A stretch of 40,036 nucleotides of DNA from Pseudomonadota bacterium (GTDB lineage: Bacteria > Desulfobacterota > Desulfobulbia > Desulfobulbales > SURF-16), in contig JAHIVT010000024.1 in the NCBI GenBank assembly GCA_018816555.1, positions 1-40,036 of the forward strand. The letters are read 5' to 3'. Below the pieces are notes generated by a model that was given only the letters and a program-made list of their open reading frames with translations, made no database searches and was not told where the DNA came from. The translations under genes were made by a program, and so were the position numbers. This document shows, one piece after another, positions 11,864 through 38,237 of this stretch. Within the stretch, counting starts at the first letter, position 1; each line of letters opens with the position of its first letter.

Positions 11864-11930
11864 CGTGCTACATAATCCTTGAAAAATATTCCCGCCTATT
11901 ATAGTGTTACTGTTCTATTTTTCGTGTTAC
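11864..11930 (+). promoter_or_regulatory. GTGTTAC repeats upstream of the TonB/ABC operon
   Basis: GTGTTAC occurs at 11904-11910 and again at 11924-11930 with a 13-base spacer; a variant GTGCTAC lies at 11864-11870. The half-site and spacer match the NikR-like operator found at 25911-25937, but here the two copies point the same way. A metal-responsive site is possible; the direct orientation argues against a standard NikR dimer site. Confidence 0.35.
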
Positions 11931-12639: not shown

Positions 12640-13009
12640 GACCTTCGACACCATCAACGTTATCCCCTTTATCGACATCATGCTGGTGCTGCTGGTCATC
12701 GTGCTCACCACCTCGACCTTCATCGCCCGGGGCGTGATCCCGGTGGATCTGCCCCGGGCCGGCGCCGGGGAAACCGAGACCATCAAGAGTCAGACCATAG
12801 ACATCGATCGGAACGGCAGGATTTTTTTTAACGCCAAAGAGGTGGAAATCGCCGGATTGGTCTTCAGCCTGGCTGAGCTGCCCAGGGAGATGCCGATCCT
12901 GGTCCGCGCCGACCGGACACTGCCGCTTCAAGGCTTTGTCGAGGTGATGGAGGCGATCAAGAACGCCGGATTCCGGCGGGTCAGTCTGCAGACCGAGGAA
13001 CGGCCATGA
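12629..13009 (+). CDS. exbD: ExbD/TolR-family biopolymer transport protein
   Basis: This encodes 126 residues from the ATG at 12629 inside the end of exbB, with GGGAGAG upstream. It has a short cytoplasmic tail (MEDKTFDTINVIPFIDIMLV), then one membrane helix (LVLLVIVLTTSTFIA) carrying the essential Asp of ExbD/TolR (FIDIML). A periplasmic domain ends VEVMEAIKNAGFRRVSLQTEE, typical of the family. It partners ExbB and TonB encoded on either side; the tonB start overlaps its stop by 4 nt. Confidence 0.92.
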   Translation: MEDKTFDTINVIPFIDIMLVLLVIVLTTSTFIARGVIPVDLPRAGAGETETIKSQTIDIDRNGRIFFNAKEVEIAGLVFSLAELPREMPILVRADRTLPLQGFVEVMEAIKNAGFRRVSLQTEERP

Positions 13010-13809: not shown

Positions 13810-13901
13810 TGGCTGCGCTGAATATCAAGACATGGCATGGCCAGATTTTTAATCGTTTGAGTATTTAAACATTACATCGCCAAAAAAAGGAGAGAAAGGA
13901 A

Positions 13902-15941: not shown

Positions 15942-15950
15942 GTGAGTTTT

Positions 15951-17552
15951 ATGTATAACATTCGCTATCTCACCGGCGCGGTTCTCTGTCTGCTGCTGCT
16001 TGCCGCCCCTGGCTGCGGCCGGCAGCAGCAGGAATCCCGCTCCATGCCCCCGGCGCTCACCCTGGCCGTGGGCGGGGAAAACCCGGAAGGTTATGACCCC
16101 ACCCTGGGCTGGGGCAGTTACGGCAACCCCCTGTTCCACAGCACCCTGCTCAGGCGCGATGCGGACCTCAACATCGTGCCCGATCTGGCAACGGAGTGGA
16201 AATTGGCGGAGAACCGGCTGACCTGGACCGTCACCATCCGGCCGGATGTGGTCTTTTCCGACGGCTCGCCGCTTACCGCCCGGGATGTGGCCTATACCTT
16301 CAATACGGCCGCCGCGGCCGGCGGCGTGCTCGACCTCGCCAATCTCGGCAGGGCGGAGGCGGTGGACGACATCACGGTACAGCTCCACCTCAAGCAGCCA
16401 GACATCACCTTTATCAATTATCTCATCACCCTTGGCATTGTGCCGGAAAAACTGCACGGCCAGGGCTACGGCCGAGGTCCTGTCGGCTCCGGGCCATACC
16501 GGCTGGTACGCTGGGATGAGGGCCAGCAGATGATTGTCGAGGCCAACCCCTATTACTACGGGCGGCAGCCGGCCATCAAACGGCTCATCTTTCTCTTTAG
16601 CGGCGAGGATGCGGCGCTGGCAGCAGCCAAAGCGGGAAGGGTCGATGTGCTGGCCGTTCCCTCAAGCCTGGCCGCCCAGGCGATCCCCGGCATGAAGCTG
16701 CATGTGGTGAAAAGCGTGGACAACCGGGGTTTGATGTTCCCCTGCGTGCCGGATACCGGCGTTAAAACCCCGCGCGGGCTGGCCGTGGGCAACGACGTCA
16801 CCGCCGATGTGGCCATCCGCCGGGCGGTCAACTTCGCCATCAACCGGCAGGCCCTGGTGGATGGCGTACTGGAAGGATTCGGCCGGCCTGCTTTCGGGGC
16901 GGTGGATGATCTGCCCTGGGACAACCCGACGATCCGCTTCAGGGACAATGATGCTGAAAAGGCCGGGGCCATTCTGGCCGAGGCCGGCTGGCTGGATCGT
17001 GATGGTGACGGGGTGCGGGAAAAAGACGGCGTCAAGGCTGAGTTCACCATTGTCTACAATGCCACGGACAGTCTGCGCCAGGGGCTGTCCTTGGCCGTGG
17101 CCGACATGCTGCGCCCGGTGGGCATCCGGGCCGTACCCAGGGGGGAGAACTGGGATCGCATCAAAAACGAGCTGGTGCACAGCAATGTGGTGGTCTTCGG
17201 CTTCGGCGGCCACAGCCCGCTGGAGATGTACAAGCTCTATCACAGTCCGGGAGCCGAGCCGTCCTACTGGAACGGCGGTTTTTACACCAATGCCGTGGTG
17301 GACCGCTATCTTGAGCAGGCCAGGGCGGCCGCCTCCTTTGCCGACTCCATCCCGCTGTGGCAGAAGGCCCAGTGGGACGGGCGGACGGGATTGAGCATGG
17401 CAGGCGATGCCCCGTGGGCCTGGCTGGTCAACCTGGACCACACCTATTTCATCAACCAGTGCCTGGATGTGGGCAGATCGCAGATGGAACCCCACGGCCA
17501 CGGCTGGCCCATCACCGCCAATATCAACGAATGGCAGTGGACCTGCAACTGA
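15951..17552 (+). CDS. ABC transporter substrate-binding lipoprotein, NikA/DppA family
   Basis: This encodes 533 residues of solute-binding protein family 5. A lipobox (LLLAAPGC) with cysteine near residue 23 makes it membrane-anchored. Family landmarks are WKLAENRLTWTVTIRPDVVFSDGSPLTA (an extended match), DVAYTFN, GSGPYRLVRW and AIRRAVNFAINRQALVDGV. The end is rich in His/Trp (HGHGWPITANINEWQW), which could matter for metal-chelate binding. The start is either GTG at 15942 or ATG at 15951; the latter follows AGGTGAG. The gene begins within 10 bases of the receptor stop, so ligand should pass from the receptor to this protein. Nickel, opine metallophore and oligopeptide are all possible substrates. 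Confidence 0.88.
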   Translation: MYNIRYLTGAVLCLLLLAAPGCGRQQQESRSMPPALTLAVGGENPEGYDPTLGWGSYGNPLFHSTLLRRDADLNIVPDLATEWKLAENRLTWTVTIRPDVVFSDGSPLTARDVAYTFNTAAAAGGVLDLANLGRAEAVDDITVQLHLKQPDITFINYLITLGIVPEKLHGQGYGRGPVGSGPYRLVRWDEGQQMIVEANPYYYGRQPAIKRLIFLFSGEDAALAAAKAGRVDVLAVPSSLAAQAIPGMKLHVVKSVDNRGLMFPCVPDTGVKTPRGLAVGNDVTADVAIRRAVNFAINRQALVDGVLEGFGRPAFGAVDDLPWDNPTIRFRDNDAEKAGAILAEAGWLDRDGDGVREKDGVKAEFTIVYNATDSLRQGLSLAVADMLRPVGIRAVPRGENWDRIKNELVHSNVVVFGFGGHSPLEMYKLYHSPGAEPSYWNGGFYTNAVVDRYLEQARAAASFADSIPLWQKAQWDGRTGLSMAGDAPWAWLVNLDHTYFINQCLDVGRSQMEPHGHGWPITANINEWQWTCN

Positions 17553-17553
17553 T

Positions 17554-18549
17554 ATGCCCCTGCAGCTGACGAAATTCCTGTTCGCCAAGACCCTCCGGCT
17601 TGTCCTGCTCGTTGCAGCGGTGGCAACCCTCTCCTTTGTACTGGTGAGCCGCTCACCCATTGACCCGGTGGACGCTTACGTGGGGGCGGCGGTCATGAAG
17701 ATTTCGCCGGAGCAGCGGCAGATGATCATTGCCCGCTGGGGCCTTGACCGACCACCCCTGGAACGCTTCGGCAGATGGGCCGCGCAACTGGCCAAGGGGG
17801 ATTTCGGCGTTTCCACCATTTTTAACGAACCGGTCACTGCCGTCATCGCCAAGCGCTTTGTCACCTCGTTGTGGCTCATGGTCCTGGCCTGGTGTTTTTC
17901 CGGCCTGCTCGGCTTTGCCCTGGGGCTCATCGCCGGGGCCTGGGAGGAGAGCCCGGCGGACCGGCTGATCAGGCTCTATGCCTATACCATGGCCTCCACG
18001 CCCACCTTCTGGGTCGGCATGATCCTGCTGATGCTCTTCTCCGTTTACTTGGGCTGGACGCCGGTCTGCTGTGCCTGGCCCCCTGGATTGAGCGCCGAAC
18101 AGGCAACACTCTGGCAACGGCTGCATCATCTGCTGCTGCCGGCCGTAACCTTGTCCCTGATCGGCATCGCCCAGATCACTCTTCATACCCGTGAAAAGAC
18201 TATCGAGGCCATGCGGAGTGATTACGCCGTTTTTGCCCGGGCCCAGGGGGAATCACCCGGCGGGATCGTCTGCCGGCGCGCCCTGCGCAATGTGGCATTG
18301 CCCGCCGTTACCCTGCAGTTCGCCTCCCTGGGGGAACTATTCGGCGGCGCCGTGCTGGCAGAGCAGGTCTTCGCCTATCCGGGACTGGGGCGAACCACCG
18401 TCGAGGCAGGTATTCGGGGCGACATCCCCCTTCTTCTGGGAATTGTCCTCTTCAGCACGATATTTGTCTTTACCGGCAATTTCGTGGCCGATCTCATCTA
18501 TTATCTGGTGGATCCGCGACTCAGGAAAACAGCAGGGGGCTTCTCATGA
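17554..18549 (+). CDS. ABC transporter permease, NikB/DppB family
   Basis: This encodes 331 residues from the ATG one base after the previous stop; a longer frame overlaps the binding protein and is rejected. The N-terminal RLVLLVAAVATLSFVLVSRS and 'PIDPVDAY … GLDRPPLERFGRW' are typical of DppB/NikB permeases. The EAA loop reads DYAVFARAQGESPGGIVCRRALRN. About six membrane helices are visible. It forms the inner-membrane channel with the next protein. There is no good Shine-Dalgarno, so translation is probably coupled. Confidence 0.9.
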   Translation: MPLQLTKFLFAKTLRLVLLVAAVATLSFVLVSRSPIDPVDAYVGAAVMKISPEQRQMIIARWGLDRPPLERFGRWAAQLAKGDFGVSTIFNEPVTAVIAKRFVTSLWLMVLAWCFSGLLGFALGLIAGAWEESPADRLIRLYAYTMASTPTFWVGMILLMLFSVYLGWTPVCCAWPPGLSAEQATLWQRLHHLLLPAVTLSLIGIAQITLHTREKTIEAMRSDYAVFARAQGESPGGIVCRRALRNVALPAVTLQFASLGELFGGAVLAEQVFAYPGLGRTTVEAGIRGDIPLLLGIVLFSTIFVFTGNFVADLIYYLVDPRLRKTAGGFS

Positions 18550-19382
18550 TGACCAATTTTTTGGTTCTTGACCTCAGAACACGCACCATGATGGTCATCT
18601 TCGGCTGTCTCCTTCTCTTCTCCGGAATTTTTCTCGGCGCCTGGCTGTATGGCGAGCAGGGTCAGACGACCAATCTGCCTCTGCGGAAACTGCCCCCTGG
18701 CTGGGATCGGCCATTCGGGACAGACTGGCTGGGCAGGGACATGTTCGCCAGAACCCTTAAGGGGCTCCGCATCAGCCTGGAGATCGGCCTGGCAGCCGCT
18801 ACCTGCTCCGCGAGCATCGCCCTGGTCTTCGGTCTGGCGGCCGCCACCATGGGCAGGCTCGTTGACGTTGTGGTAACCTGGTTATGCGATGTGGGAATGG
18901 CCACCCCGCATCTGGTTCTGCTTATCCTGATATCCTTTGCCTGCGGCGGCGGGGCCAAAGGGGTTATCATCGCTGTTGCCGCCTCGCATTGGCCTGCTCT
19001 CACTCGGGTTATCCGGGCCGAGGTTATGCAGCTCCGAACCTCCGATTACATTAAGCTCTCCCGCCGGCTGGGCAGAAGTTCCGCCTGGATTGCGCGGCAC
19101 CATCTGCTGCCCCATGTGGCGCCGCAGTTCCTGGTGGGGCTGCTGCTCCTTTTCCCTCATGCCATCCTGCATGCGGCCGGACTGACATTCCTTGGTTTCG
19201 GCATGTCGCCGCATACGCCGGAAATAGGAACACTGCTGGCGGAATCCATGCGTTATCTCTCAACGGGAATGTGGTGGCTGGCCGTGGCTCCGGGGCTGAC
19301 GCTTGTCCTTTCGGTCATGGCATTTGACGTCCTCGGGAATAATGTCAGGGCGCTGCTGGACCCAAAAACCCTGCGCGAATAG
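18546..19382 (+). CDS. ABC transporter permease, NikC/DppC family
   Basis: This encodes 278 residues overlapping the previous gene by 4 nt. 'PFGTDWLGRDMFARTLKGLRISLEIGL' (split here at its natural variants) is the hallmark of DppC/NikC permeases, and DYIKLSRRLGRSSAWIARHHLLPH is the EAA loop that contacts the ATPases. It has five to six membrane helices. It pairs with the upstream permease. Confidence 0.9.
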   Translation: MMTNFLVLDLRTRTMMVIFGCLLLFSGIFLGAWLYGEQGQTTNLPLRKLPPGWDRPFGTDWLGRDMFARTLKGLRISLEIGLAAATCSASIALVFGLAAATMGRLVDVVVTWLCDVGMATPHLVLLILISFACGGGAKGVIIAVAASHWPALTRVIRAEVMQLRTSDYIKLSRRLGRSSAWIARHHLLPHVAPQFLVGLLLLFPHAILHAAGLTFLGFGMSPHTPEIGTLLAESMRYLSTGMWWLAVAPGLTLVLSVMAFDVLGNNVRALLDPKTLRE

Positions 19383-19391
19383 GAAAGCTCC

Positions 19392-20315
19392 ATGCTTGAT
19401 ATACAAAATCTTTCCATACGGTTCACCCGTTACACCTTCGGTCTCAAGAAAAAAGAGGTCTGTATCGTCCGGAGTCTCGATCTGTCGGTCTCAACTGGAC
19501 AAGTCATGGCTGTGATCGGCCAATCGGGGGCCGGGAAGAGTCTGCTGGCTCACGCCCTGCTGGGTATCCTGCCTCGCAACGCCCGGATCGAAGGGAGAGT
19601 ATTTTTCAAAGGGCAGCCGTTGACTCCTGAACGGCAGTCAGCCATAAGGGGGCGGGAGATTGCTCTGATTCCCCAATCGGTCACCTATCTGAACCCGCTT
19701 CTGCGGGTAGGGGTACAGGTAGCCCGGGCTGCGCGGCTGAGCGGCATCAACCAAAAGGATGTGCCGGCCACTGTCAGCCGTGCTTTTGCCCGCTACCTTC
19801 TCCAGAAAAAGGTTGCGGCCTGGTTTCCATTTCAGCTCTCAGGGGGCATGGCCCGCCGGGTGCTCACCGCCACCGCCACAGTGGGCATGGCGGACTTGAT
19901 CCTGGCGGACGAACCCACCAGTGGTCTTGATCCGATCACAGCCAGGGAGGCCCTCGGCCATCTGCGCGAACTGGCAAACACCGGCAAGGCCGTACTGCTG
20001 ATCACCCACGATATTGAAACAGCCCTGCAAGTCGCCGATATGGTAACGGTATTCTGTGCCGGTACCACCGTGGAAGTGGCCAGAGCGGATGATTTCAAAG
20101 GCCTTGGCCATCTTCGCCACCCCTATACCAGGGCTCTCTGGGCTGCCCTGCCTACCAACAGTTTTATCGGCACCATGAAGCCCATCGAAAGGACATCCGA
20201 TACTGGCGGCTGTCCTTTCCGTCTCTGCTGTAATGACCAGGATGCCGTCTGCGGCCAAAGCGTCCCCGAATTGAAGCAGGCAGGCGAAGGATGGGTAAGG
20301 TGTCACCATGCTTGA
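19392..20315 (+). CDS. ABC transporter ATPase, NikD/DppD family
   Basis: This encodes 307 residues. Walker A is GQSGAGKS, the signature LSGGM, and Walker B LILADEPTSGLDP. The C-terminal extension CPFRLCCNDQDAVC … VRCHH carries the cysteine pattern typical of DppD/OppD-type ATPases. It powers uptake together with the next ATPase; their genes overlap by 8 nt. AGGAAAGC precedes the start. Confidence 0.9.
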   Translation: MLDIQNLSIRFTRYTFGLKKKEVCIVRSLDLSVSTGQVMAVIGQSGAGKSLLAHALLGILPRNARIEGRVFFKGQPLTPERQSAIRGREIALIPQSVTYLNPLLRVGVQVARAARLSGINQKDVPATVSRAFARYLLQKKVAAWFPFQLSGGMARRVLTATATVGMADLILADEPTSGLDPITAREALGHLRELANTGKAVLLITHDIETALQVADMVTVFCAGTTVEVARADDFKGLGHLRHPYTRALWAALPTNSFIGTMKPIERTSDTGGCPFRLCCNDQDAVCGQSVPELKQAGEGWVRCHHA

Positions 20316-21033
20316 GGCCAGAAACCTCGCGTACAGATATGGAAAGCAGCATTCCTGGCTATTTAATGATCTTGATCTGCGGATAACTCCGGGGGAGATT
20401 GTCGGCCTTTCCGGCCCAAGCGGCCGGGGAAAATCCACCCTGGCAAAGCTGCTGGCCGGCTATCTGCCCCCCGGTAGAGGAAGCGTGATGGTAGACGGAC
20501 GGCCCCTGCCCGAATCGGGCCATTGCCCGGTCCAGCTCCTTTTTCAACACCCGGAACTGGCCGTCAACCCCCGCTGGAAGGCGGGGGATATTCTGGCAGA
20601 GGCCGGGCCGCCGGATGCCGCGCTGCTGCGGGACCTCGGCATTGAACCATCGTGGCTTGCCCGTTACCCCCACGAACTTTCCGGCGGCGAACTGCAGCGT
20701 ATCTGTCTGGTGCGCGCACTCGCGCCGCGCACCCGCTATCTTCTCTGCGATGAGATGACCTCCATGCTCGACGCCCTCACCCAGGCAAGCATCTGGCGGA
20801 CTGTGCTGGATATAGCCCGGAGCCGGGAGCTTGGCCTGCTCGTCATCAGCCACGACCAGGCGCTGCTGGGCAAATTATGCCATCGGACGGTTTGTTATTT
20901 CCAAAGCGATCATCGTTCATCTGCTTGTTTCCCCGCCGCAAAACCATCATTTGTACGCAAAGCGTTTCCCGTCAGGCGCGATTCTCCTGCAGCCAGGACA
21001 GATACGTGGGCACCCCCTCCTCCACCGGCATGA
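20308..21033 (+). CDS. ABC transporter ATPase, NikE/DppF family
   Basis: This encodes 241 residues. Walker A is GPSGRGKS, the signature LSGGELQR, and Walker [12 protein letters not shown] (Met instead of the usual Pro after the catalytic Glu, as in NikE). It is the last gene of the plus-strand uptake operon. The final 20 codons (Pro/Ala-rich) overlap the 3' end of hldD on the other strand by 62 bp, so the extreme C-terminus may be a recent extension created where the two blocks were joined. Confidence 0.88.
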
Positions 21034-22032: not shown

Positions 22033-22053
22033 CACCACGAATCAATCGTGGTG
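22033..22053 (-). terminator. Hairpin spanning the stop codon of the poly-His gene
   Basis: The perfect 8-bp inverted repeat CACCACGA/TCGTGGTG has a 5-base loop, and the TGA stop sits at the loop. One arm is formed by the final His codons. No U-run follows, so it is at best a factor-dependent or RNA-stabilising structure. Confidence 0.35.
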
Positions 22054-22293
22054 ATGGTGGTGATGATGACGGCTGGCATCCGGACCGCCGATGGCGCTCA
22101 GGGCTTGCTCCAGAATGCCATCAGTGGTCGCCATACTGCCAATCGCCTGATCGAGCAGCTCAGCCAGATCAGGATGCCCTTCCTCTCTGACTTGCGCGGC
22201 CCAATTGCGGAACTCTTCACTGTGCTGGTGATTGTGATCTACCCAATGCGGCAACAGCACCCTCAGTTTTTCGATGCTTGTTTTCTTTTCCAT
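22042..22293 (-). CDS. Small helical protein with C-terminal poly-His tail, likely nickel-binding
   Basis: This encodes 83 residues from the ATG at 22293 with GGAAGGA about 10 nt upstream. The body (LRVLLPHWVDHNHQHSEEFRNWA … DLAELLDQAI) resembles small helical proteins that carry a His-rich segment in other anaerobes, but with the segment at the other end. The protein ends in seven His and an Asp. It is the fourth gene after the CooS homologue on the same strand. CODH clusters often encode a His-rich nickel protein (CooJ in Rhodospirillum), so a nickel-supply role is a reasonable inference; CooJ homology itself is not claimed. Confidence 0.75.
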   Translation of the reverse strand: MEKKTSIEKLRVLLPHWVDHNHQHSEEFRNWAAQVREEGHPDLAELLDQAIGSMATTDGILEQALSAIGGPDASRHHHHHHHD

Positions 22294-22481: not shown

Positions 22482-24254
22482 TTATCTGTCGAGCACTGCC
22501 CGTTTTCCATCCAGATGCGAAACAACAGCCTTGGCGAGCTTCCGGTGATCTTCCTCCAACACCCAGTTGGCGCCATAATCAACCCTGCATTTATCCAAAA
22601 GGTATTCAATCATCGGCTTGGACCCTCTGACCGGCAGATTGGGGAAAAAAGTGGTAATGCCGCTTGCCACCATGCACTGCCCGGTAGCGACGATCTTCTC
22701 GCTGGTCCAGGAAGCCGAGGCCACGACCAGGGGCAGATCCGCGAAGTCATTCCCCAACCCCTCTTCGATCAAAGACGAGGCGATGGTCAGCAGGCGGTTG
22801 CTTTCCGTGCATTGCCCCAGCGACAAAACCGGATTGATCCCGAGTTCGCGGCAGGCGGCTGTCAGTAATGAGCCAGCCTTGGCCCACACGTCGTCTCCCT
22901 GCATCATTCCAGCCCGGGCCAGGGATTCAGAGACGCAGCCGCCGGCCATGACCAGAATATCGTGTGAAAGCAGTGCCTCGGCCAGGTCGAGATGTCCGTC
23001 GCCATGGACTCGATAATTATCGCAACCGATCAGAAAAACGATACCGCGCACGGCACCTGTTTTTATCTGCCGGGCAAGCCCCCTTGCGTCAATGGAGTCA
23101 TGCCGGCGCATGGTTGTCTTCACGGCCTCGACCGCCTCGTCCATTTCTTTCTTCGCCCTTTTGGCAAAGGCGGCAATGCCCATCATAAGGATGGCCCTGG
23201 CGTTTTCCAGCCCCCCGGGACCTGTCAGTTCGAAATGCTCCGCCCCGGCCATTTTTATGGAATTACCGACGGAAACGATTCGTGTGTGAAATAACCGGGC
23301 AGCCTTGCAGGCGGCAGGCATGACGCACGAACCACCGACCACCAGGACATCGACGGCGCCGCTCTGCACCATGCTTTCCTGTTCGCCGATGGCGCCGGAG
23401 ATCAGATTGATTCCTCGGGCCCGTGAATTTCCCAGGGAGGATTTGACGCCGGGGTCGTCAAGCCCGTTAAGCAGCGCCTCCAAGGCCAGGGGACTCTGGC
23501 TGTAGATCAGGATGTTGATCTTGTCGTTTCGCAGGCACCCCTCCCTGGCGCTCGCCGGGGGCGGGGCGGGAAACATGATATCATTAAGCAGGCCGAAGAC
23601 TCGGGAAGCGCCCCAGCCGTCGGCCAGTGCGCAACGGCTGGTCTGGCGGAGGATATTAACGTACTCCTGATCAACTCCCATATGGGTCCGGTGCATAAGT
23701 TCCACCACTTCCCGGTCAAGCCCCCGGGGGCTTACGCCCAATTCGCGCCAGATCCGGCGACGTTTTTCCGGGACAAACTTCAACAGCGCCAGCTCATCTT
23801 CTTGGTTACCGAACTCGGCCAGCAGTCTTTCACCCACAGCCTGGACCAGCTCATTTTTGTCCAGCCCCACGTGATCCAGTTCAAAAAGCCGGGCCAGTTC
23901 AACAAGCCGCGGCTGGTCATGAATCATGAAGGGTGATTCTCCCCGGACCGTTGCCCTTAACGCCCGGACCATCTCTCTGGCCTCCTCCACCTGCCTGGAA
24001 ACACCGGCGCCAACGATTCTGGCGAAATTTCTGGCCGCTACCGTGTCGGCAGTGGCCCCGCAGACCCCGATTAAATCCTGCACACCATCAATGATCTGGC
24101 ATGGGCCCATGTTACAGTTGCGGCAACAGGTCCCACCTGAACCGAACAAACACATGGACATTTCGCGGTCACTGATTCTGTCCACGGCATTACTAAATGT
24201 GGGTGGGGACTGCCCATGGGAGGACTTCCTTGTCTTATTCATTGAATTGTTCAT
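22482..24254 (-). CDS. cooS: CooS-family carbon monoxide dehydrogenase homologue with altered C-cluster site
   Basis: This encodes 590 residues from ATG 24254 (AGGA, 7 nt upstream); longer starts overlap the FmdE-like gene. The D- and B-cluster cysteines are all present: Cys35, Cys43, then Cys44, Cys47, Cys52 and Cys65, in CLFGSGGTCCRNCNMGPC and IGVCGAT. Of the C-cluster ligands of Carboxydothermus CODH-II, counterparts of Cys333, Cys446, Cys476 and Cys526 are present (Cys310, 411, 440, 482), as is the Lys563 counterpart (Lys520). The His261 region HGHNP reads YSQSP, and the Cys295 region ICCTGN reads GAIGEQ. The two ligands of the pendant iron are therefore missing. CO oxidation by the normal mechanism is doubtful; a hybrid-cluster-like or other redox role is possible. 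It is co-transcribed with the genes on either side. Confidence 0.88.
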   Translation of the reverse strand: MNNSMNKTRKSSHGQSPPTFSNAVDRISDREMSMCLFGSGGTCCRNCNMGPCQIIDGVQDLIGVCGATADTVAARNFARIVGAGVSRQVEEAREMVRALRATVRGESPFMIHDQPRLVELARLFELDHVGLDKNELVQAVGERLLAEFGNQEDELALLKFVPEKRRRIWRELGVSPRGLDREVVELMHRTHMGVDQEYVNILRQTSRCALADGWGASRVFGLLNDIMFPAPPPASAREGCLRNDKINILIYSQSPLALEALLNGLDDPGVKSSLGNSRARGINLISGAIGEQESMVQSGAVDVLVVGGSCVMPAACKAARLFHTRIVSVGNSIKMAGAEHFELTGPGGLENARAILMMGIAAFAKRAKKEMDEAVEAVKTTMRRHDSIDARGLARQIKTGAVRGIVFLIGCDNYRVHGDGHLDLAEALLSHDILVMAGGCVSESLARAGMMQGDDVWAKAGSLLTAACRELGINPVLSLGQCTESNRLLTIASSLIEEGLGNDFADLPLVVASASWTSEKIVATGQCMVASGITTFFPNLPVRGSKPMIEYLLDKCRVDYGANWVLEEDHRKLAKAVVSHLDGKRAVLDR

Positions 24255-24277
24255 TCTTGATTCCTGTTGCATTTCCG

Positions 24278-24880
24278 TTAATGATACATGAACCAGGCGG
24301 GTTCCAGACCGGAACAGGTTTGACAGCATATTTGTCCTTCAATGTCCCAGGCATTCTGGACGAAAGACGATTTCCCGCATCGACAGCACCGGATAGTACT
24401 GTTATTCTCCGCAGTTTGCAGAAGAGGGCGGCAACGTATCTGGCGGATCTTGCAGAAGCTGTCCACCGGGCGTTTGAGAATCGACTCGACCAGCAGGTCA
24501 AGCCCGGTTCGATATATTTCCACCACCGCAGGTTTATCCATGGCAAGATGCGGCTCCAGAGATCGCAACCCCTGCGACAGAACAATATGCTTTCGGATCA
24601 GGGTAAAATGAAGCGCCGTGCCGGTAACGGCGTGATAGAAGAGAAAATCCCATGGCCGCGGTGTTTCCGTCACGGTGACCTGACCGTAACAGCCATGTTC
24701 ACGGGACAGATAGGACAGGGCAAAGGCGGCATCACCTTCCGCGGCCACTGCTATTCTCACTTCCTGCAGACCGTCGAAGAATTCATGCACATACTTGCCT
24801 ATCTGCCAGCCGATGGCGAGATCAGGGCTCAGATGCCCCATTCTCTGGGTCAAACCGTATAATTCAATTGGTACCAGCAT
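24278..24880 (-). CDS. FmdE-like protein with C-terminal zinc ribbon
   Basis: This encodes 200 residues. 'MGHLSPDLAIGWQIGKYV' aligns with the start of FmdE-family proteins (usual form HGHLCPGLAIGYR), and the end CCRCGKSSF … ICCQTCSG (Cys165/168, Cys186/189) is the zinc-ribbon-like tail of the same family. FmdE was named from formylmethanofuran dehydrogenase operons; its biochemical role is poorly known and linked to metal or cofactor handling. Here the usual first His and the Cys of HGHLCPG are replaced (Met and Ser), so a metal site may be lost. The start at 24880 has AGAGGAG. It lies 23 nt before the CooS homologue and 80 nt after the ChlI-like gene. Confidence 0.72.
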   Translation of the reverse strand: MLVPIELYGLTQRMGHLSPDLAIGWQIGKYVHEFFDGLQEVRIAVAAEGDAAFALSYLSREHGCYGQVTVTETPRPWDFLFYHAVTGTALHFTLIRKHIVLSQGLRSLEPHLAMDKPAVVEIYRTGLDLLVESILKRPVDSFCKIRQIRCRPLLQTAENNSTIRCCRCGKSSFVQNAWDIEGQICCQTCSGLEPAWFMYH

Positions 24881-24960: not shown

Positions 24961-25893
24961 TTAACACTTGATAACAAAATCAATCTGTTGTGGAGGTGTC
25001 TGTAGAATCATCTTTGCTGATCTGTCGAGATCTTTTCCGCTAACCATTTTTCTTCCACACAGGGCCGCCAAGGCACAGGCCGCCGTTTGCAGTTTGCTTC
25101 TCAATTTCTGGGGATCGTCTTCATTCGAACCGGAAAAAGCCGCAAGCCGTTCTTGAATGTGCCCGGGAACCTGTACAGCGGGGAGCAACTTATTTGCCGC
25201 AGGTAGCAGCCCATAAGGATTTTCGCCTAACCATGACATCGGCGCAGAGTGGTCCTGCCTGTTTCTGCAACATGAATCCTCCGCGGGACTTTCCGCTCTG
25301 TTGGCATACAGGCCAAAACAGTCGAGCTCCCGGCGGGTCAAACCATGAGCCTCGGAATCGACGGAAGCAATAAGAAGAAATGAGGTTGGCCATTCATCCC
25401 CTTCAACATGCACCAGTCGTTCGCGGAAAGCGGCGAAGATCTTTTCCCGAAGATCTGCTCCAAGACGATTGATTTGCGGCACATAAAGTACGCCTTGGTC
25501 AACTGCTGCAAGCAAGTTAGGACAAAAATCAGGACAAACCCGCGCATGAACCGATTCTTCATGATCACCATAACGATTTTCTGCTCGGCAATCAGCCGGA
25601 ACGGTTACCAGTGGGCGAGGCTTTATTAAAAAATGACGACCACCAGCGCGATGGCCGGCGCCTCCTGTAAAACCACCCCGCCCTGGACGGCAACACCTCT
25701 TTTCAATCAAAGGGGGTAGCAGAGCTGCCAGACATTTGACCGCAGCTTCATTTGCCGTCTCTTCATGGCCGAAAAGAAGGACTCCGCCGATTTTTGGATC
25801 AACGGCGCATACCAGTAGGGCAAGGATTGCATTCTCGTCTGCCGAAAGACAATGTTCTGAGATGATGCTTATTGGTCCAGTGTTACTTTTCAT
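24961..25893 (-). CDS. ChlI/BchI-like AAA protein lacking Walker A and B residues
   Basis: This encodes 310 residues. The N-terminus (ENAILALLVCAVDPKIGGVLLFG), the middle (GVLYVPQINRLGADLREKIF … FLLIASVDSEAHGLTRRELDCFGLY) and the C-terminal helical lid (ALAALCGRKMVSGKDLDRSA) match the metal-chelatase ATPase subunit ChlI/BchI. The P-loop, normally GxRGTGKS, reads GHEETANE (42-49). Walker B, normally LYVDEVN, reads LYVPQIN (136-142). DRFGL, with its conserved Arg, reads DCFGL. All ATPase residues are gone while the fold pattern remains. Many added cysteines (CCRPG, CPDFC, SCCRN) may bind metal. No Shine-Dalgarno precedes 25893; the mRNA may be nearly leaderless. It is first in the operon. Confidence 0.78.
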   Translation of the reverse strand: MKSNTGPISIISEHCLSADENAILALLVCAVDPKIGGVLLFGHEETANEAAVKCLAALLPPLIEKRCCRPGRGGFTGGAGHRAGGRHFLIKPRPLVTVPADCRAENRYGDHEESVHARVCPDFCPNLLAAVDQGVLYVPQINRLGADLREKIFAAFRERLVHVEGDEWPTSFLLIASVDSEAHGLTRRELDCFGLYANRAESPAEDSCCRNRQDHSAPMSWLGENPYGLLPAANKLLPAVQVPGHIQERLAAFSGSNEDDPQKLRSKLQTAACALAALCGRKMVSGKDLDRSAKMILQTPPQQIDFVIKC

Positions 25894-25904: not shown

Positions 25905-25937
25905 CTTATAATGTTACGATTATTTAAAAAGTAACAC
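25905..25937 (-). promoter_or_regulatory. Candidate NikR-like operator and promoter of the ChlI-like/cooS operon
   Basis: ATGTTAC (25911-25917), 13 bases, then GTAACAC (25931-25937) forms an inverted repeat one base away from GTGTTAC-N13-GTAACAC, the form I recall for deltaproteobacterial NikR sites. On the minus strand TATAAG (25905-25910) directly follows, a plausible -10 box 11 bases before the start codon, so a bound repressor would block the promoter. A further GTGTTAC half-site lies at 25880-25886 inside the gene start. No nikR gene is in the window. Confidence 0.55.
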
Positions 25938-26150: not shown

Positions 26151-26444
26151 ATGCTGACAGGAAGAAACGGTAAATCGTGCCCGGAATTATTAAAGGCCCT
26201 TGCGGATCAAACCAGGCTTGCGGTGCTCCTGCAACTTATGCATGGGCCGCAATATGTGCAGGAATTGAATGCAGCGTTGGGGGTGGAGCAAACCTTGTTT
26301 TCCCACCATTTAAAGATCTTACGTCGGATGGGGCTCGTGATCGCGGAGCGATCCGGCAAGGGGGTCCTCTATCAACTGGCGCCCGGCGTAGCCTCTGAAA
26401 AGGGCGATGCCATCAACCTGGGTTGTTGTGAACTGAAATTTTAA
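26151..26444 (+). CDS. arsR: ArsR-family metalloregulatory repressor
   Basis: This encodes 97 residues with a winged-helix core (LLKALADQTRLAVLLQLM … QTLFSHHLKILRRMGLVIAERSGKG) typical of ArsR/SmtB dimers. As(III) is usually sensed by three Cys. Here they are limited to Cys10 near the N-terminus and Cys92-Cys93 at the C-terminus, a set resembling the C-terminal type of Acidithiobacillus ArsR rather than the CVC motif of plasmid R773. It should leave its operator when As(III) binds and derepress the two following genes. GAGGAAGGA precedes the ATG. Confidence 0.9.
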   Translation: MLTGRNGKSCPELLKALADQTRLAVLLQLMHGPQYVQELNAALGVEQTLFSHHLKILRRMGLVIAERSGKGVLYQLAPGVASEKGDAINLGCCELKF

Positions 26445-26455
26445 CTGGAGATCAA

Positions 26456-27274
26456 ATGCAATATACACATGAATTTTTCGGGGAATTGATCGGCACCTTT
26501 ATTCTGGTCTTTTTCGGTTGCGGCTCGGTTGCGGTAACGGTGCTTTTCTCTGCCCACGCCGGTCTTTTTCAGGTTGCGGCGGTTTGGGGTATGGGGGTGA
26601 TGCTGGCCATTTACGCCACCCGTCATCTTTCCTGCGCGCATCTCAATCCAGCGGTGAGTGTGGCCATGGTGCTTGGTCGCAGGATGTCGGCCCGCAGGCT
26701 GCCGGTTTATGTCGGCGCTCAGTTCATTGGGGCCTTTCTGGCTGCCGCACTACTTTACGCCTTGTTTTCCGGCTCAATCCTTGCCTACGAAGCCGTGCAT
26801 GGCATTGTTCGGGGAACCCCGGAATCGGTGCAAACCGCCATGATGTTCGGGGAATTTTATCCGAATCCCGGCGCCGGCAGCGTGGCGGTGGTCTCGTTTT
26901 GGAACGCCTTTGGCGCCGAGGCGGCCGGCACCTTTCTATTGGTGATCATGATTTTTGCCCTGACAGAGGGCTGCAATGTCGGCCGCCCCGATGACGCTCT
27001 GGCGCCGCTCTTTATCGGGATTACCGTGGCCGCGATAATCTGCGTGGTGGCGCCGCTTACCCAGGCAGGCCTTAACCCGGCCCGGGACCTTGGTCCCCGG
27101 CTCTTTGCCTGGCTTGCCGGCTGGGATCGCGCCGCCCTTCCGGATGACCAGTATGGCTTCATTACCATTTACGTGCTGGCTCCGCTGGTGGGCGGCTCCG
27201 CCGCGTCACTGCTTTTTGTCCGGTTTCTTGAACCGATGTTGTCCAAAAAAAATAATTGTTCATGTTGTGATTGA
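26456..27274 (+). CDS. Aquaglyceroporin, probable arsenite channel
   Basis: This encodes 272 residues of a MIP-family protein with six membrane helices and two NPA boxes (HLNPAVS at 62-68, LNPARD at 206-211). Asp after the second NPAR marks the glycerol-type (GlpF) pore, which passes As(OH)3. Context with arsR and arsM points to AqpS-like arsenite movement rather than glycerol use. It ends in a cysteine cluster (CSCCD) that could bind arsenic or regulate gating. It is 11 nt after arsR with GGAGATC before its ATG. Confidence 0.88.
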   Translation: MQYTHEFFGELIGTFILVFFGCGSVAVTVLFSAHAGLFQVAAVWGMGVMLAIYATRHLSCAHLNPAVSVAMVLGRRMSARRLPVYVGAQFIGAFLAAALLYALFSGSILAYEAVHGIVRGTPESVQTAMMFGEFYPNPGAGSVAVVSFWNAFGAEAAGTFLLVIMIFALTEGCNVGRPDDALAPLFIGITVAAIICVVAPLTQAGLNPARDLGPRLFAWLAGWDRAALPDDQYGFITIYVLAPLVGGSAASLLFVRFLEPMLSKKNNCSCCD

Positions 27275-27298
27275 ACATTGAAAACAGAAGGAGAAGAC

Positions 27299-28360
27299 AT
27301 GTCCACTGACACCTTTACAATAAAACAACTCCAGGAATATTACGGAAAGATCCTCATGGGAAACAAGGATCTTCAGGCAAATGCCTGTTGTTGCACTGAT
27401 GGGAATCAGACCCCGGCCATAAGGGCCGCGCTTGCCGAGGTTAACCCCGAGATCTGCGACAGGTTTTATGGCTGTGGCTCACCCCTGCCGCCGTTGCTGG
27501 ACGGTAGCACCATCCTCGATCTGGGCTGCGGCTTCGGCCGGGACACCTTTCTTGCCGCCCGGCTTGTCGGTCCTGCCGGGTATGTGATCGGGGTGGATAT
27601 GACCGAAGAACAGCTTGAGGTTGCCCGCTGCAATATTGATTCCCAGATGAAGACGTTTGGGTTTGCCAAACCAAACATTGATTTCAGGCAGGGGTATATC
27701 GAAGACCTCAAGGCCCTGGATATTGCCGACGGCTCCATTGACGTGGTGATCTCCAACTGCGTCATCAACCTATCGCCGGATAAAAAAAATGTTTTTTCAG
27801 AAATTTTCCGGGTCTTGAAACCGGGCGGGGAACTGTTCTTTACCGATGTCTTTGCCGGTCGCCGGGTCCCCGTCCGGTTTCAGGCCGATCCTGTCTTGCA
27901 TGGAGAATGCCTGGCCGGCGCCATGTACCGGGAGGATTTCCGCAGGCTCCTGCGAGATTTGGGCTGCCTCGACTTTCGCCAGACCTGCAGCCGCAGGATA
28001 AACCTCAATAACCCGGAAATCGAAATGAAAATCGGCATGGTGGATTTTTATTCCGTTACGATCCGGGCCTTTAAACTCAAAAGCCTGGAAGACATCTGTG
28101 AAGACTATGGCCAGACAGCAACCTACCACGGCACCATAGCCGACTTTTCCCATTTCTTTGACCTGGACGACCACCATCGCCTCATCACCGGCAAACCCAT
28201 GCTGGTCTGCGGCAACACCGCCTCAATGCTTGCGGAGACCCGCTACGCGTTTCACTTCACCATAACCGGAGATCGCTCCACCCATTTCGGCGCTTTTGAC
28301 TGCGCTCCCGCCGCCAGCAAGAACGAAAATGAGGAAGACCGCGGTGGGGCTTGTTGCTGA
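27299..28360 (+). CDS. arsM: Arsenite S-adenosylmethionine methyltransferase
   Basis: This encodes 353 residues. The SAM-binding motif is ILDLGCGFGRD (72-82). The As(III)-binding cysteines expected in ArsM are visible: CCC at 30-32, Cys154 in SNCVINLSP and Cys204 in GECLAGAMY. The start at 27299 has AAGGAGA; a frame start 21 bases earlier is less likely. It methylates As(III) to methylated and volatile species and forms an operon with arsR and the channel. The C-terminal portion ends in GGACC, an extra metal-thiol-type tail. Confidence 0.94.
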   Translation: MSTDTFTIKQLQEYYGKILMGNKDLQANACCCTDGNQTPAIRAALAEVNPEICDRFYGCGSPLPPLLDGSTILDLGCGFGRDTFLAARLVGPAGYVIGVDMTEEQLEVARCNIDSQMKTFGFAKPNIDFRQGYIEDLKALDIADGSIDVVISNCVINLSPDKKNVFSEIFRVLKPGGELFFTDVFAGRRVPVRFQADPVLHGECLAGAMYREDFRRLLRDLGCLDFRQTCSRRINLNNPEIEMKIGMVDFYSVTIRAFKLKSLEDICEDYGQTATYHGTIADFSHFFDLDDHHRLITGKPMLVCGNTASMLAETRYAFHFTITGDRSTHFGAFDCAPAASKNENEEDRGGACC

Positions 28361-28497
28361 CCAGAAGAGAACAAGCTGCACGCCTATTTTTGAGATTAAT
28401 CCCGGATTTTTGATTTCCCTGGAGAATGAATTATTTCCCCCTTGATGCGCGGAGGTCTTCCAAGGAAACGGCAATTCGCTGGAATCTCTCGCAATAG

Positions 28498-29295
28498 TCA
28501 AAATATATATGGTATCTCCGGTGCTTTGGTTTCTTCCACAGAAGCCTGTTTGAGAACTGGGATGGAGTCCTTGTTTTTCTTTTCCAGCTCAAAAACGCCT
28601 CTTACCCTGACCCAGGTGTTGTCGGGAAATTCCGACTGGTCCGATTCCAGAATTATCAGCGCAAGAGGGATGGCGTCAGCCGCGCAACAGTTAATCATAA
28701 AACGAAACACAACCATTGCCTTCTCCCCGAAGTCTTTTTGAACCTTCCTGTTTTTGGTAAACATTCCGATTACGGAAATTATCCTGCCTTTGTATTTTTT
28801 GGGGTTCATGTAAATATCGAGCATCGATACCTCTTCCTGTGGGGCTGCCGGTGCGGAGAGGACTTTCTCTTCCGCTCCCGTATCGACATCGGCTCCCATG
28901 GTAGTTGACTGCTCCAAGCCAGGAGCCTCACCGGTGCCCGGTGAAACAGCGGTCGGTGTGTTCATGGCTACTGAAGGCAAGCCGAGGGAACGATTCTGGA
29001 AGGCATTGGAATCAAGTCCTTGTTTTCCGGAGTTGAGCATATAGGCGAGGGGCAGGATGAGAATACAGCCGCGGACCATCTCCAGCATACCAAGCGGGCG
29101 TGACTTCGCAACAAGACTGCCGCTGAGCAGAAAACACGCCAGGGTTACTATGCCAAGGCCAAGCAGGATGCCGAATTCAGACCGCAGGAAAATAGTGTAC
29201 CGTTGATGAAGAAGAAGGAAAACAAGGGCAATAATCCAAAGCAGGAACACGACGGTTCGCCACCACTCTTGCCGTATCGTAAAAAAGGAGTTCAT
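28498..29295 (-). CDS. YcgQ/DUF1980-like membrane protein
   Basis: This encodes 265 residues from the ATG at 29295 with GGGAGGTG upstream. Three hydrophobic segments lie near the N-terminus (about 12-30, 38-60, 67-85). A linker follows, then a soluble domain (LDIYMNPKKYKGRIISVIGMF … VVFRFMINCCAADAIPLALII) that matches the DUF1980/YcgQ family with its conserved CCAAD motif. In Bacillus, YcgQ is paired with the permease YcgR under zinc control. Here it overlaps the YraQ-like permease by 4 nt in a zinc-uptake operon, supporting a joint zinc-related role. The exact function is unknown. Confidence 0.85.
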   Translation of the reverse strand: MNSFFTIRQEWWRTVVFLLWIIALVFLLLHQRYTIFLRSEFGILLGLGIVTLACFLLSGSLVAKSRPLGMLEMVRGCILILPLAYMLNSGKQGLDSNAFQNRSLGLPSVAMNTPTAVSPGTGEAPGLEQSTTMGADVDTGAEEKVLSAPAAPQEEVSMLDIYMNPKKYKGRIISVIGMFTKNRKVQKDFGEKAMVVFRFMINCCAADAIPLALIILESDQSEFPDNTWVRVRGVFELEKKNKDSIPVLKQASVEETKAPEIPYIF

Positions 29296-30449
29296 GGCAG
29301 GGCACCTCCCATTACCAATTCCAGTAAGAGCGCCACGGCAAGGACCGCTACCAGGATAAATACCGATAGCACCGCGATGGTCCGTTTGCGGAAGAGGCTT
29401 TGATACATGAGCAGGAGCTTCAGGTCGAACATGGGTCCGGTCAGCAAAAAGGCCATCTGGGCCGGTAACGGCATCAGGCCCCGGAATGAAGCGGCGATAA
29501 AGGCGTCGGCCTCGGAACAAAGATTCAAGAGAATGGCGAGCGCCATCATGAGTATTGAGGGGAGACCGAAGTATCCGGCAAAGCCTAAAAAAAATTTTCG
29601 GTCAATGTATGTCTGGGCCAAGGCCGCGATGAAAGCGCCGATGACCAGAAAATGGCCCACTGACAAAAAATCGTTAGCCGCATGGCGGCAAGCGGCGGCA
29701 AGTTTTCCTCCCAGGGCTGCGTCCTCATGGTCATGGCCGCAGCCACAGGAAAATCCGTCGTTCTTCTCATGAAAAAAGGGAAGAGGGATAGCCTCCGCAA
29801 GGTTCGGGAACCGGACATCCCCCTCCGGCGGAGCGAGGAGGGATTGGCTGCAGTGACAAGAGGGGGTTTCCGACGGGCGCAAGTCGGCTCTGAAAGCCTG
29901 GTCGGCATGGAACAACCGGCTCATACCCAGACCGACGACCACGGCAATCAGATATCCCCCCCCTAAACGCAACAGCACAATCAGGCCGTCGAATTTATAG
30001 GCCAGCGCCGTGGAGGCAACCACGATTGGATTGACAATGGGACCGCCAAGGAGATAGGCGATGGCCGCCCCCGCCGGCAACCCCTTTCGGGTCAAGCGTC
30101 TTACCACCGGCACCACGGCGCACTCGCAGACCGGAAAGACAAGCCCCAGTCCGGCGGCGATAAAAACCGACAGCCAGGGACGCTTTTTCGGCAACAGGGC
30201 GGTCATCCGTTCACGGCTGATAAAGATTTCCACCAGCCCTCCGACCATGGAACCGAAGAGCATAAAGGGCAAGGCCTCGAGGATGATGCTGGTAAAGATG
30301 AGTGAAAGTGACTGGATACTCTGTTGACTGTGAGCTGCAAGCAGAAGGGTTCCGGCAACAATCAGGAAGGACAGTTCCAGCAGCATACCAAAACGTGGAA
30401 TGCCGGTCTTCCGTGCGGTGCCCATATTTTTTGTTGCGGTTAAACTCAT
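29292..30449 (-). CDS. YraQ/YcgR-family (DUF318) permease
   Basis: This encodes 385 residues from ATG 30449, which overlaps the znuB stop by 4 nt. It has about eight to ten membrane helices, the family motif FPVCECAVVPV, and LLGGPIVNPIV repeated later as LTGPMFDLKLL. Between the two halves lies a Cys/His-rich loop (CHCSQ, then CGCGHDHEDA) likely to bind metal. The two-permease-half layout fits DUF318, a family implicated in metal handling; B. subtilis YcgR/YcgQ are zinc-regulated. Location after znuACB suggests zinc movement. Confidence 0.87.
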   Translation of the reverse strand: MSLTATKNMGTARKTGIPRFGMLLELSFLIVAGTLLLAAHSQQSIQSLSLIFTSIILEALPFMLFGSMVGGLVEIFISRERMTALLPKKRPWLSVFIAAGLGLVFPVCECAVVPVVRRLTRKGLPAGAAIAYLLGGPIVNPIVVASTALAYKFDGLIVLLRLGGGYLIAVVVGLGMSRLFHADQAFRADLRPSETPSCHCSQSLLAPPEGDVRFPNLAEAIPLPFFHEKNDGFSCGCGHDHEDAALGGKLAAACRHAANDFLSVGHFLVIGAFIAALAQTYIDRKFFLGFAGYFGLPSILMMALAILLNLCSEADAFIAASFRGLMPLPAQMAFLLTGPMFDLKLLLMYQSLFRKRTIAVLSVFILVAVLAVALLLELVMGGALP

Positions 30450-31312
30450 GAAAAATGATCCTTTGAGAAAATATTGGCGATGAGGCTTACGACAAACCAG
30501 CAGAAGGAGAAAAGTATAACCGTGGCGCCGGTGGCGGTGCGGGCCCACGGCTGGGCCGAGACCAGGAGACCCGCCACGGCGGAGGTGACGCTGACCAAGA
30601 GAGCCCACCAGAACATGCCGCCGGCCGTGCGGGTCAGATTTCTTGCAGTTGCGGCCGGTACGATCAGCAGCGCGGTTACCAGCAGCACACCGACAGCCCA
30701 TACCGAGAAGATCACCACCAGTGACAGGAGCGCCGCGTAAGTATACTGGTAGGCGGCGACCCGCAACCGGTGCGCCTTGGCCAGGATCGGCGAGATGCCG
30801 ATATAGAGCATGCGGTTGAACCCCCAGGCCTGAAATATCATAATGGCGACAAAGAGGAGAAGGAGCCAGCGGATTTCTCCGTCGCCGATGGTGAGGATAT
30901 CACCATAGAGAAATCGCTGCATGTCTCTGGCAAGACTCGCGTCCCTGCTTACCACCGCCAAACCAAAGGCGATGAGGGCGGAGAAGAAGACACCGATCAC
31001 CGTATCGGAAGAGAGCGCGCTTCGCCGCTGTACGGCAATGATGCCAAGGCCGATCAGGAGGCCAAAGGCCGGCATGGTGAGCCGGGGATTGAGCGAGGTG
31101 AGCATGCCGATGGCTACGCCGGTGAAGGCCGAGTGACTAATGGCGTCGGCAAAGAAGGCCATCCGGAAATTAACCACCTGTACCCCCATGGCGGCGGCCA
31201 TGGGGGCCAGAAGCACCAGTCCTATCAGGGCTTGCTGCATGAAGCGGGCCTCCAGGCAGTCGCAAGGAATGAGCAGGGGAACAAGGTCATAGAGAACGGT
31301 CAGATCAATCAC
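30446..31312 (-). CDS. znuB: Zinc ABC transporter permease
   Basis: This encodes 288 residues of an ABC-3 family permease. FMQQALIGLVLLAPMAAAMGVQ followed by MAFFADAISHSAFTGVA is the family signature (family ZnuB/MntB), with eight or so helices. The start is taken as GTG at 31312, which has GGGAGGTG upstream and overlaps znuC by 8 nt; no earlier start is better. It forms the inner-membrane channel for zinc (or manganese) with ZnuC and ZnuA. Confidence 0.9.
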   Translation of the reverse strand: MIDLTVLYDLVPLLIPCDCLEARFMQQALIGLVLLAPMAAAMGVQVVNFRMAFFADAISHSAFTGVAIGMLTSLNPRLTMPAFGLLIGLGIIAVQRRSALSSDTVIGVFFSALIAFGLAVVSRDASLARDMQRFLYGDILTIGDGEIRWLLLLFVAIMIFQAWGFNRMLYIGISPILAKAHRLRVAAYQYTYAALLSLVVIFSVWAVGVLLVTALLIVPAATARNLTRTAGGMFWWALLVSVTSAVAGLLVSAQPWARTATGATVILFSFCWFVVSLIANIFSKDHFS

Positions 31313-32108
31313 GACGCACCTCCCGGCAACAGCTGGCCGAACAATACGTGTCTCCGTCCGGCATGGCACGGGCATTCACTAACCCCATATGAAGCCCGAA
31401 AGTTGCCGTCAGGGTCTCGCCGGTCAGCACCTTGCGCGGCGGGCCTTCGGCCACCACCCGGCGGTTGAGGCAAATGACATGGGTGGCATGATGGGTGACC
31501 GTTGCCAGGTCATGGCTCACCATGAGCTGAGTAAACCCCCGGTCCCTGCGCAACCCGTCGAGCAATTCACAGAAGATCTGTTCGCCCTGGAAATCAACCC
31601 CGGCAGTGGGCTCATCCAGGACGAGCAGATCCGGTTCCTCCTGCAGGGCAAGGGCCAGGAGAACCCGCTGAATTTCGCCGCCGGAGAGCGCCCCCAGGAG
31701 GCGCGGTTCCAACTTATCGGCTTGCACAGCTGCCAGGAGTTCGCGCGCTCGCCCTCTACCGCCGCGGCAACCGAACCAGAATGGCAGGCGTTGCCGACCC
31801 ATGAGCATGAATTCCATCACTGTGAGCGGCATGCCGCGGTCAAAGGCAAATCGCTGCGGTACATAGCCGATTCTGGGCCTTCCACCCCCATTCCCGAACC
31901 GGATTTTCCCACTGTAGGGAAACATTCCCAACAGTGCCAGGATCAGGGTTGTCTTGCCTGCCCCGTTTGGGCCGACAATGTTGGTCCAACTGCCACGAGG
32001 CACTGAAGCGTTGACCCGTTCGAGGATAGGGACGCCGCGGGCGGCCACCGTCACCTCTTCGAAGTGGACGGTGGTCTTCGATACATACGGACTGTCTTTC
32101 TGGTTCAT
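31305..32108 (-). CDS. znuC: Zinc ABC transporter ATPase
   Basis: This encodes 267 residues. Walker A is GPNGAGKT, the signature LSGGEIQR, Walker B LLVLDEPTAGVD and the H-loop SHDLATV. RIGYVPQRFAFDRGMPLTV is typical of the Mn/Zn ABC class. A Cys-rich tail (YCSASCCREV) is unusual. It overlaps znuA by 4 nt. Confidence 0.92.
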   Translation of the reverse strand: MNQKDSPYVSKTTVHFEEVTVAARGVPILERVNASVPRGSWTNIVGPNGAGKTTLILALLGMFPYSGKIRFGNGGGRPRIGYVPQRFAFDRGMPLTVMEFMLMGRQRLPFWFGCRGGRGRARELLAAVQADKLEPRLLGALSGGEIQRVLLALALQEEPDLLVLDEPTAGVDFQGEQIFCELLDGLRRDRGFTQLMVSHDLATVTHHATHVICLNRRVVAEGPPRKVLTGETLTATFGLHMGLVNARAMPDGDTYCSASCCREVRRD

Positions 32109-38235: not shown

Positions 38236-38237
38236 AC

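Follow-up and report, generated by a model that had tools for sequence, protein, structure and literature searches.

A CO dehydrogenase homologue with a remodelled metal site, located in probable nickel-import loci of Desulfobulbales

CO dehydrogenases (CODHs) have been divided into 24 structural groups by Inoue et al. (Table 2, PMC6344411); in that table the combined loss of His and Cys1 is confined to groups A-4 and A-6, with no example in clades B to G. The acid-base His is also absent from clades C, D, and G (PMC6344411). According to the available descriptions, C. hydrogenoformans CODH-V (Inoue group D-1) has His at the position of His261, with Cys295 replaced by Glu and the acid-base His by Tyr; its D-cluster is of type III, and it shows no CO activity. 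In the CODHs of clade B, as far as the available text describes them, the altered ligand of groups B-1 to B-3 is Cys2 (Cys333), maturases are few, some groups have His-rich tails, and 64% of the operons have ABC transporters beside the CODH. The class III hybrid cluster protein (HCP) of M. marburgensis keeps the His and has two Glu ligands (PMC10502027, available part). When the first cysteine of the pair was changed in DvCODH (C301S), the enzyme was inactive, contained no Ni, and could not be activated by Ni, and part of the unique iron sat in the cubane site (PMC6168284, available part). In our literature search, with subscription papers outside its scope, no title or abstract opening described a protein like the one reported here, and none is described in the available part of the nickel paper on cable bacteria (PMC11247825).

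The window, i.e. the whole stretch of 40,036 nucleotides analysed here, belongs to a genome of the order Desulfobulbales. It carries on the minus strand (22482–24254) a CooS-type CODH homologue, which we call CODHx. An earlier, sequence-only reading of the window had recognised it as a CooS homologue, and this identification was borne out by alignment, by a fold model, and by PF03063 (Prismane/CO dehydrogenase family), which it matched with an E-value of 9.8e-99 and 331.8 bits against a curated cut-off of 27. The full ORF spans 22482–24329 (−) and encodes 615 aa, while the start at 24254 chosen by the earlier reading gives 590 aa; we also prefer the latter, because 17 of the 25 codons ahead of it overlap the preceding gene, and residues are numbered from it throughout. 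CODHx scored 346.7 bits against TIGR01702, the catalytic CooS equivalog, which is under its cut-off of 478, and 27.4 and 27.5 bits against the HCP models TIGR01703 and NF003658, whose cut-offs are 360.8 and 367. The top PDB sequence match was D. vulgaris CODH (E 1e-96). The AlphaFold model, based on an alignment of 26 sequences that left out L020, L038, and L065, had a pLDDT of 81.3. In the VIA comparison it matched solved CODHs with Z values of about 53 across 526–544 residues (top two rows), and 7e0l_B, the class III HCP of M. marburgensis, with a Z value of 26.1. A 550-aa product on contig C151 of genome G000 was taken as an HCP by its length only.

Residue positions were assigned from an alignment that included 15 hand-picked canonical CODHs. 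CODH-II itself is absent from the alignments, and its numbers were reached via the canonical rows and DvCODH numbering. The cluster to which each CODHx residue is assigned was taken partly from the literature and is in part presumed. As the sequence-only reading had stated, the cysteines of the D-cluster (C35 and C43) and of the B-cluster (C44, C47, C52, and C65) are in place, and all six are present in each of the four CODHx members described below, as in CooS-type Ni-CODHs. Also kept are four C-cluster cysteines, C310 (codon 23325–23327), C411, C440, and C482 (codon 22809–22811), which correspond to Cys333, Cys446, Cys476, and Cys526 of CODH-II, Cys526 being the nickel-side ligand of true CODHs, and the active-site Lys, K520 (Lys563; codon 22695–22697); all codons given here are on the minus strand.

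The pendant-iron ligands of CooS-type Ni-CODHs, His261 and Cys295, have no equivalents in CODHx, again in agreement with the earlier reading. The position of His261 (His266 of DvCODH) is occupied by Gln in 4/4 members (Q253, codon 23496–23498) and by His in 15/15 canonical rows, and the canonical HGH motif has become YSQ in CODHx members, with FNQ in one. Cys294-Cys295 fall within a 17-column alignment gap, common to 4/4 members, between Q253 and C310. After C240 the next cysteine is C310, in agreement with the earlier remark that none occurs between residues about 240 and 310. That reading did not recognise the loss of Cys295 as a deletion, and it overlooked a second invariant G-F pair that is likewise deleted. 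Its account of the active-site loss was incomplete as well, since the acid-base His93 is replaced by Gln (Q88, codon 23991–23993; Gln in 4/4 members, His in 15/15 canonical rows) and His96 by Glu (E91). Only the Lys of the acid-base pair His93 and Lys563 is therefore retained in 4/4 members.

A total of 140 residues are invariant in the 15 canonical rows, and 35 of these are missing from all four CODHx members, 10 of them in deleted columns; the same count in 300 random canonical quartets averaged 0.04 and never exceeded 2. L006, which is the same protein as G011_C71, was excluded from the canonical counts. Seven canonical-invariant positions carry another residue fixed in 4/4 members, and 9 of the 11 invariant Cys are retained. 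E91 and C556 (C581 in the 615-aa frame) are lineage-specific residues present in 4/4 members. The sequence-only reading had named His and Cys ligands supplied from other positions as a finding that would overturn it; this possibility was rejected, as no new conserved His was seen in the alignment and C556 was the one new conserved Cys. CODHx is very unlikely to be a CO dehydrogenase, judging from the alignment and from analogy, because both cysteines and the His are gone and DvCODH C301S is inactive without Ni. The earlier suggestion of another cluster follows from this ligand set and from DvCODH C301S (PMC6168284, available part) in a conditional form: we infer that the four cysteines carry either an all-Cys [4Fe-4S] cubane or a Ni-containing one.

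The nearest canonical relatives of CODHx belong to a type that is also present in its own genome. The own-genome copy, a CODH/ACS-type CooS, lies on contig C88 among FolD, MTHFR, AcsB, and corrinoid-protein genes, is 40–46% identical to the four CODHx members, and shares with CODHx the fold, the type II D-cluster motif, the B-cluster, four C-cluster Cys, and the Lys. Unlike CODHx, it retains His261, Cys294/295, and His93, and it sits in an acetyl-CoA-synthase gene cluster. CODHx resembles CODH-V in having an altered C-cluster ligand and an altered acid-base His, but it has Gln at the His261 position, a deletion at Cys295, and a type II D-cluster, and not the Glu at Cys295 with His kept that marks group D-1. 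CODHx shares a related homodimeric fold with the M. marburgensis HCP. Membership of CODHx among CODH-V or HCP proteins was rejected; its HCP profile scores are under the cut-offs, the His is gone, and the Cys295 loop is deleted. Groups A-4 and A-6 of clade A, as tabulated, are without D-cluster cysteines and have E and F clusters, whereas CODHx is CooS-like with its D-cluster present. The clade B enzymes, according to the available text, keep His, Cys1, and the acid-base residues, unlike CODHx, which keeps the Cys333 altered in B-1 to B-3. By analogy, their linkage to transporters is a suggestive parallel to CODHx.

CODHx was found in 4 of the 257 genomes of the order (the window's genome, G083, G011, and G187), with up to five candidates scored per genome. 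The search scores were 790 bits for G083, 735 for G011, and 684 for G187, and the next protein was a canonical CODH with 501 bits. Among 395 genomes of the phylum, with up to three candidates scored per genome, only the window's genome and G187 gave matches above 600 bits; a class-level search covered the same 257 genomes as the order search and added nothing. A scan of GTDB contigs, which retained 80 of 109 loci, gave one CODHx (DAOUUW010000191.1) that agrees with the G011 contig in length and in its match; neither the G083 copy nor the G187 copy was among the loci retained. Plasmid records held two distant CODHs, 31% and 26% identical.

The four members have open frames and pairwise identities of 50–59%. 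In a tree of these members and 64 hand-picked canonical CODHs, obtained by a quick method, unrooted, and with long branches, they formed one clade (SH-aLRT 100) on a stem branch of 1.52. In the same unrooted, quick-method tree this clade grouped with 35 canonical, mostly Desulfobulbales rows, with a branch support of 100 against the 29 others; the sequence-only reading had proposed placing the protein in a CODH clade tree. The dN/dS values between members were 0.23–0.31, approximate because dS exceeded 1. Judged from these sequences, CODHx is under purifying selection and not in decay, because the common substitutions and deletion occur in one clade with such dN/dS values. This upholds the earlier view of a conserved scaffold with a remodelled site.

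The genomic context adds a metal-uptake neighbourhood and NikR-type operators, both of which the sequence-only reading had missed. Directly upstream of CODHx is the gene of a 200-aa protein of an unnamed family with a C-terminal four-Cys motif (24278–24880, −), hereafter the partner, which immediately precedes CODHx in 4/4 loci. The partner of the window matched nothing in Pfam at E up to 5 and gave only weak matches in the PDB and NCBIfam (best E 0.065 and 0.0021), and its fold model from a two-row alignment had a pLDDT of 31.6. A supposed resemblance to FmdE was dropped. The first gene of the putative CODHx operon (24961–25893, −) encodes a diverged BchI/cobaltochelatase-type AAA protein, which matched TIGR02442/TIGR02030 at E of about 1e-20, far under the cut-offs, and whose nucleotide-binding motifs we take to be broken. 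No other of the 257 genomes has this protein at E up to 1e-25. CODHx is followed, on its own strand, by a gene for a small protein (22042–22293, −) with a C-terminal HHHHHHHD tail. Loci L148 and L152 have homologues that likewise end in His-rich tails; such homologues are present in G187 and at another place in the window's genome. The small protein may bind nickel.

On the plus strand of the window, we identified genes for ExbB (12214–12639; PF01618, E 1.8e-30), ExbD (12548–13009; PF02472, E 2.8e-25), TonB (13006–13809; PF03544, E 6.6e-20), a TonB-dependent outer-membrane receptor (13902–15941; PF00593, E 1.1e-34, and PF07715, E 8e-17), a NikA-like substrate-binding protein (15942–17552; PF00496, E 1.7e-70), and four NikB-, NikC-, NikD-, and NikE-like permeases and ATPases (17407–21033; NCBIfam, with PF00528 and PF00005 for two). 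The top NCBIfam match of the NikA-like protein was nickel_nikA, with 115.5 bits against a cut-off of 393. For the NikB–E-like proteins, Nik or Opp models were among the best NCBIfam matches, and all matches listed were under the cut-offs; by this measure the Nik-like set falls outside the nickel ABC transporter NikABCDE. ExbB, ExbD, and TonB are present in 4/4 CODHx loci and the TonB receptor in 3/4, the fourth contig (G011) being 5.5 kb long. Nik-type ABC genes are present in two of the four, the window and G187; the G187 locus has the receptor, NikA–C, and the beginning of NikD where the stretch ends. At the G083 locus there are a receptor-like ORF, a gene resembling nicotianamine synthase (PF03059, E 1.6e-18), and, about 7 kb away, an 87-aa ORF with a NikR_C domain. 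In G011, a NikR gene lies on the same 5.5-kb contig as CODHx. A NikR_C profile search of the window's genome gave one match, on contig C85.

The partner family (the window and loci L115–L133) is linked to TonB/Nik-type uptake loci, and its gene had matches in 18 of the 257 genomes (19 matches in all). We examined 17 of its loci, including the window and omitting the two weakest matches (G251 and G119), and 15 of the 17 were aligned, with L145 and L150 left out. By BLAST (E up to 1e-4), every one of the 17 loci matched one or more of the following: the window's TonB, its receptor, its Nik proteins, or the G011 TonB; 4 of the loci contain CODHx. Of the 18 genomes that carry the partner gene, 14 gave no CODHx match, with up to five candidates scored per genome, and therefore uptake does not need CODHx. 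The CODHx loci are metal-import clusters, and the metal is probably nickel; nickel is favoured over cobalt or zinc by family resemblance. Nicotianamine-synthase-like genes also occur near the partner gene in the same order (L136, 6812–7690; L138, 7042–7935 and 7935–8744), and bacterial nickelophore synthesis is a possible role for such genes. The TonB receptor adjoins Nik-type ABC genes in the window (12214–21033) and in L137, L146, L147, and L148; a 2024 survey, in its available part, reports this pair within the order only in cable bacteria (PMC11247825).

The NikR signal of delta-proteobacteria has been described as GTGTTAC-N13/14-GTAACAC, with a reversed arrangement in Desulfotalea, and the half-sites reported in the available part of that study are converging or diverging, none direct (Rodionov et al., PMC545781). 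A predicted NikR-type operator, ATGTTAC-N13-GTAACAC (13/14 matching bases; 25911–25937), precedes the CODHx operon's first gene by 17 bases. Upstream of ExbB there are NikR-type half-sites in a direct repeat, GTGTTAC-N13-GTGTTAC (11904–11930). Our first strict NikR patterns gave no match. The consensus agrees with PMC545781 (available part), and sites were then scored with half-sites in any orientation at a 20-base spacing, each matching in at least 5 of 7 bases. In 21 stretches (364,071 bases) we found 28 sites of at least 12/14, vs 1.0 expected from 5 first-order Markov shuffles. This enrichment is supportive and not a blind test, because the scoring rule was set after the first sites in the window had been seen. 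At least one such site was present in 14 of the 17 partner loci examined, and none at 12/14 was found in L144, L148, or L151, or in the sequence surrounding the two canonical CODH genes of the window's genome. A predicted operator directly before the CODHx operon is clear in the window and in G083 (2/4 loci); G011 has a weak site (11/14) before ExbB, and no NikR-type site was found at the G187 locus. The nickel link of CODHx is well supported.

The metal genes of the window are flanked (732–4866, 34610–37461, and 37501–38687) by genes for a TraG/TraD-like coupling protein, an HD-domain protein, an SNF2-type helicase, a DUF6094 methyltransferase, SRAP, and an S24 peptidase. The contig, 40 kb long, may belong to an integrative or conjugative element whose cargo is the metal genes. 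No exact direct repeat of 20–399 bases joining the contig ends was found. Adjoining the nickel genes, the region 26151–33061 encodes ArsR, an aquaporin, a SAM methyltransferase (ArsM-like), an ArsP-type permease, and a ZnuABC-like set; the names aquaporin, ArsM, and Znu were given by reading the sequence.

Taking these results together, we lean towards the view that CODHx is a CO dehydrogenase scaffold related to the order's CODH/ACS-type enzyme and taken over for nickel acquisition, a purpose for which it is probably reused. Under nickel scarcity, NikR would derepress CODHx, which would be made together with the uptake system. CODHx would be unable to build a canonical C-cluster or to oxidise CO; its four cysteines would hold an all-Cys [4Fe-4S] cubane, or a cubane whose fourth corner takes Ni. 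The D- and B-clusters would pass electrons into this remodelled cluster, which would act on an imported nickel species. CODHx might reduce a nickel–metallophore complex and so release the nickel, or it might hold nickel and hand it to the maturation of true nickel enzymes, and both the partner protein and the small protein with the His tail might act with it. The full proposal, that CODHx is a nickel-acquisition redox enzyme under NikR control which strips nickel from a metallophore complex or loads it for delivery, is tentative and, as a whole, rather doubtful, and its reaction, nickel specificity, and cluster type are all put forward conditionally. Several points speak against the nickel-acquisition reading. 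The release of Ni(II) from a ligand has no obvious need for electrons, the Nik-like proteins are under the NCBIfam cut-offs, two of the four CODHx loci (G011 and G187) are without an operator at 12/14, and most genomes with the partner gene are without a CODHx match, as noted above. In addition, we noticed no CooC gene next to CODHx. We know of no nickel-acquisition redox function for the CODH fold.

Other explanations start from the same observations. CODHx could keep the dimeric fold and structural clusters yet perform no redox catalysis, and serve to sense or store nickel or as an adaptor. The lost acid-base His and pendant-iron ligands and the His-tailed neighbour fit such a role, as do the clade B CODHs, in which another ligand is altered, some tails are His-rich, and ABC transporters are often linked (available part of the source). 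We nevertheless hold it to be unlikely, since 4/4 members retain the D- and B-cluster cysteines, the four C-cluster cysteines, and the Lys, a pattern that speaks for electrons reaching a functional cluster. CODHx could also be a nickel-independent reductase, an analogue of HCP or CODH-V engaged in hydroxylamine, NO, or stress chemistry and merely placed under nickel control. CODH-V and HCPs do carry Fe-S-O clusters on this scaffold without CO activity (PMC10502027, available part), and for hydAB of D. desulfuricans, a nickel-free isozyme, regulation by NikR has been suggested (PMC545781, available part). However, the M. marburgensis HCP and CODH-V, as described, have the His and a Glu at the Cys295 position, of which CODHx has neither, its loop being deleted, and the recognised neighbours of CODHx are transport genes, so that a reductase of this kind likewise seems unlikely to us.

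The remaining two explanations fare much worse. A working CO dehydrogenase with its missing ligands drawn from other positions could point to the lineage-specific E91 and C556, but the two-cysteine loop is deleted, no member has His or Cys at the His261 position, and DvCODH C301S is inactive and without Ni (PMC6168284, available part); we regard this as highly improbable. Scarcely credible is a decaying CODH duplicate carried along in a metal-uptake operon. The long stem branch, the lost catalytic residues, and the rarity of the gene would fit decay, whereas the open frames at 50–59% identity, the dN/dS values, the seven replacements fixed in 4/4 members, and the nine retained Cys contradict it.

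CODHx should be absent from three published CODH surveys, because their stated filters remove such sequences: two of them, according to their available parts, discarded any sequence in which cluster positions were deleted or gapped (PMC6344411 and PMC13056359), and the third discarded those without all five C-cluster cysteines (PMC13240472). It would thereby expose a blind spot of these surveys. If the preferred reading of CODHx is true, a CODH scaffold has been recycled from carbon chemistry to nickel supply, and CODHx would offer a natural test of the CODH fold without the pendant-iron and nickel-insertion ligands. Metal release from metallophores and nickel delivery to CODH are, to our knowledge, open questions, and the CODHx locus would make both of them testable.
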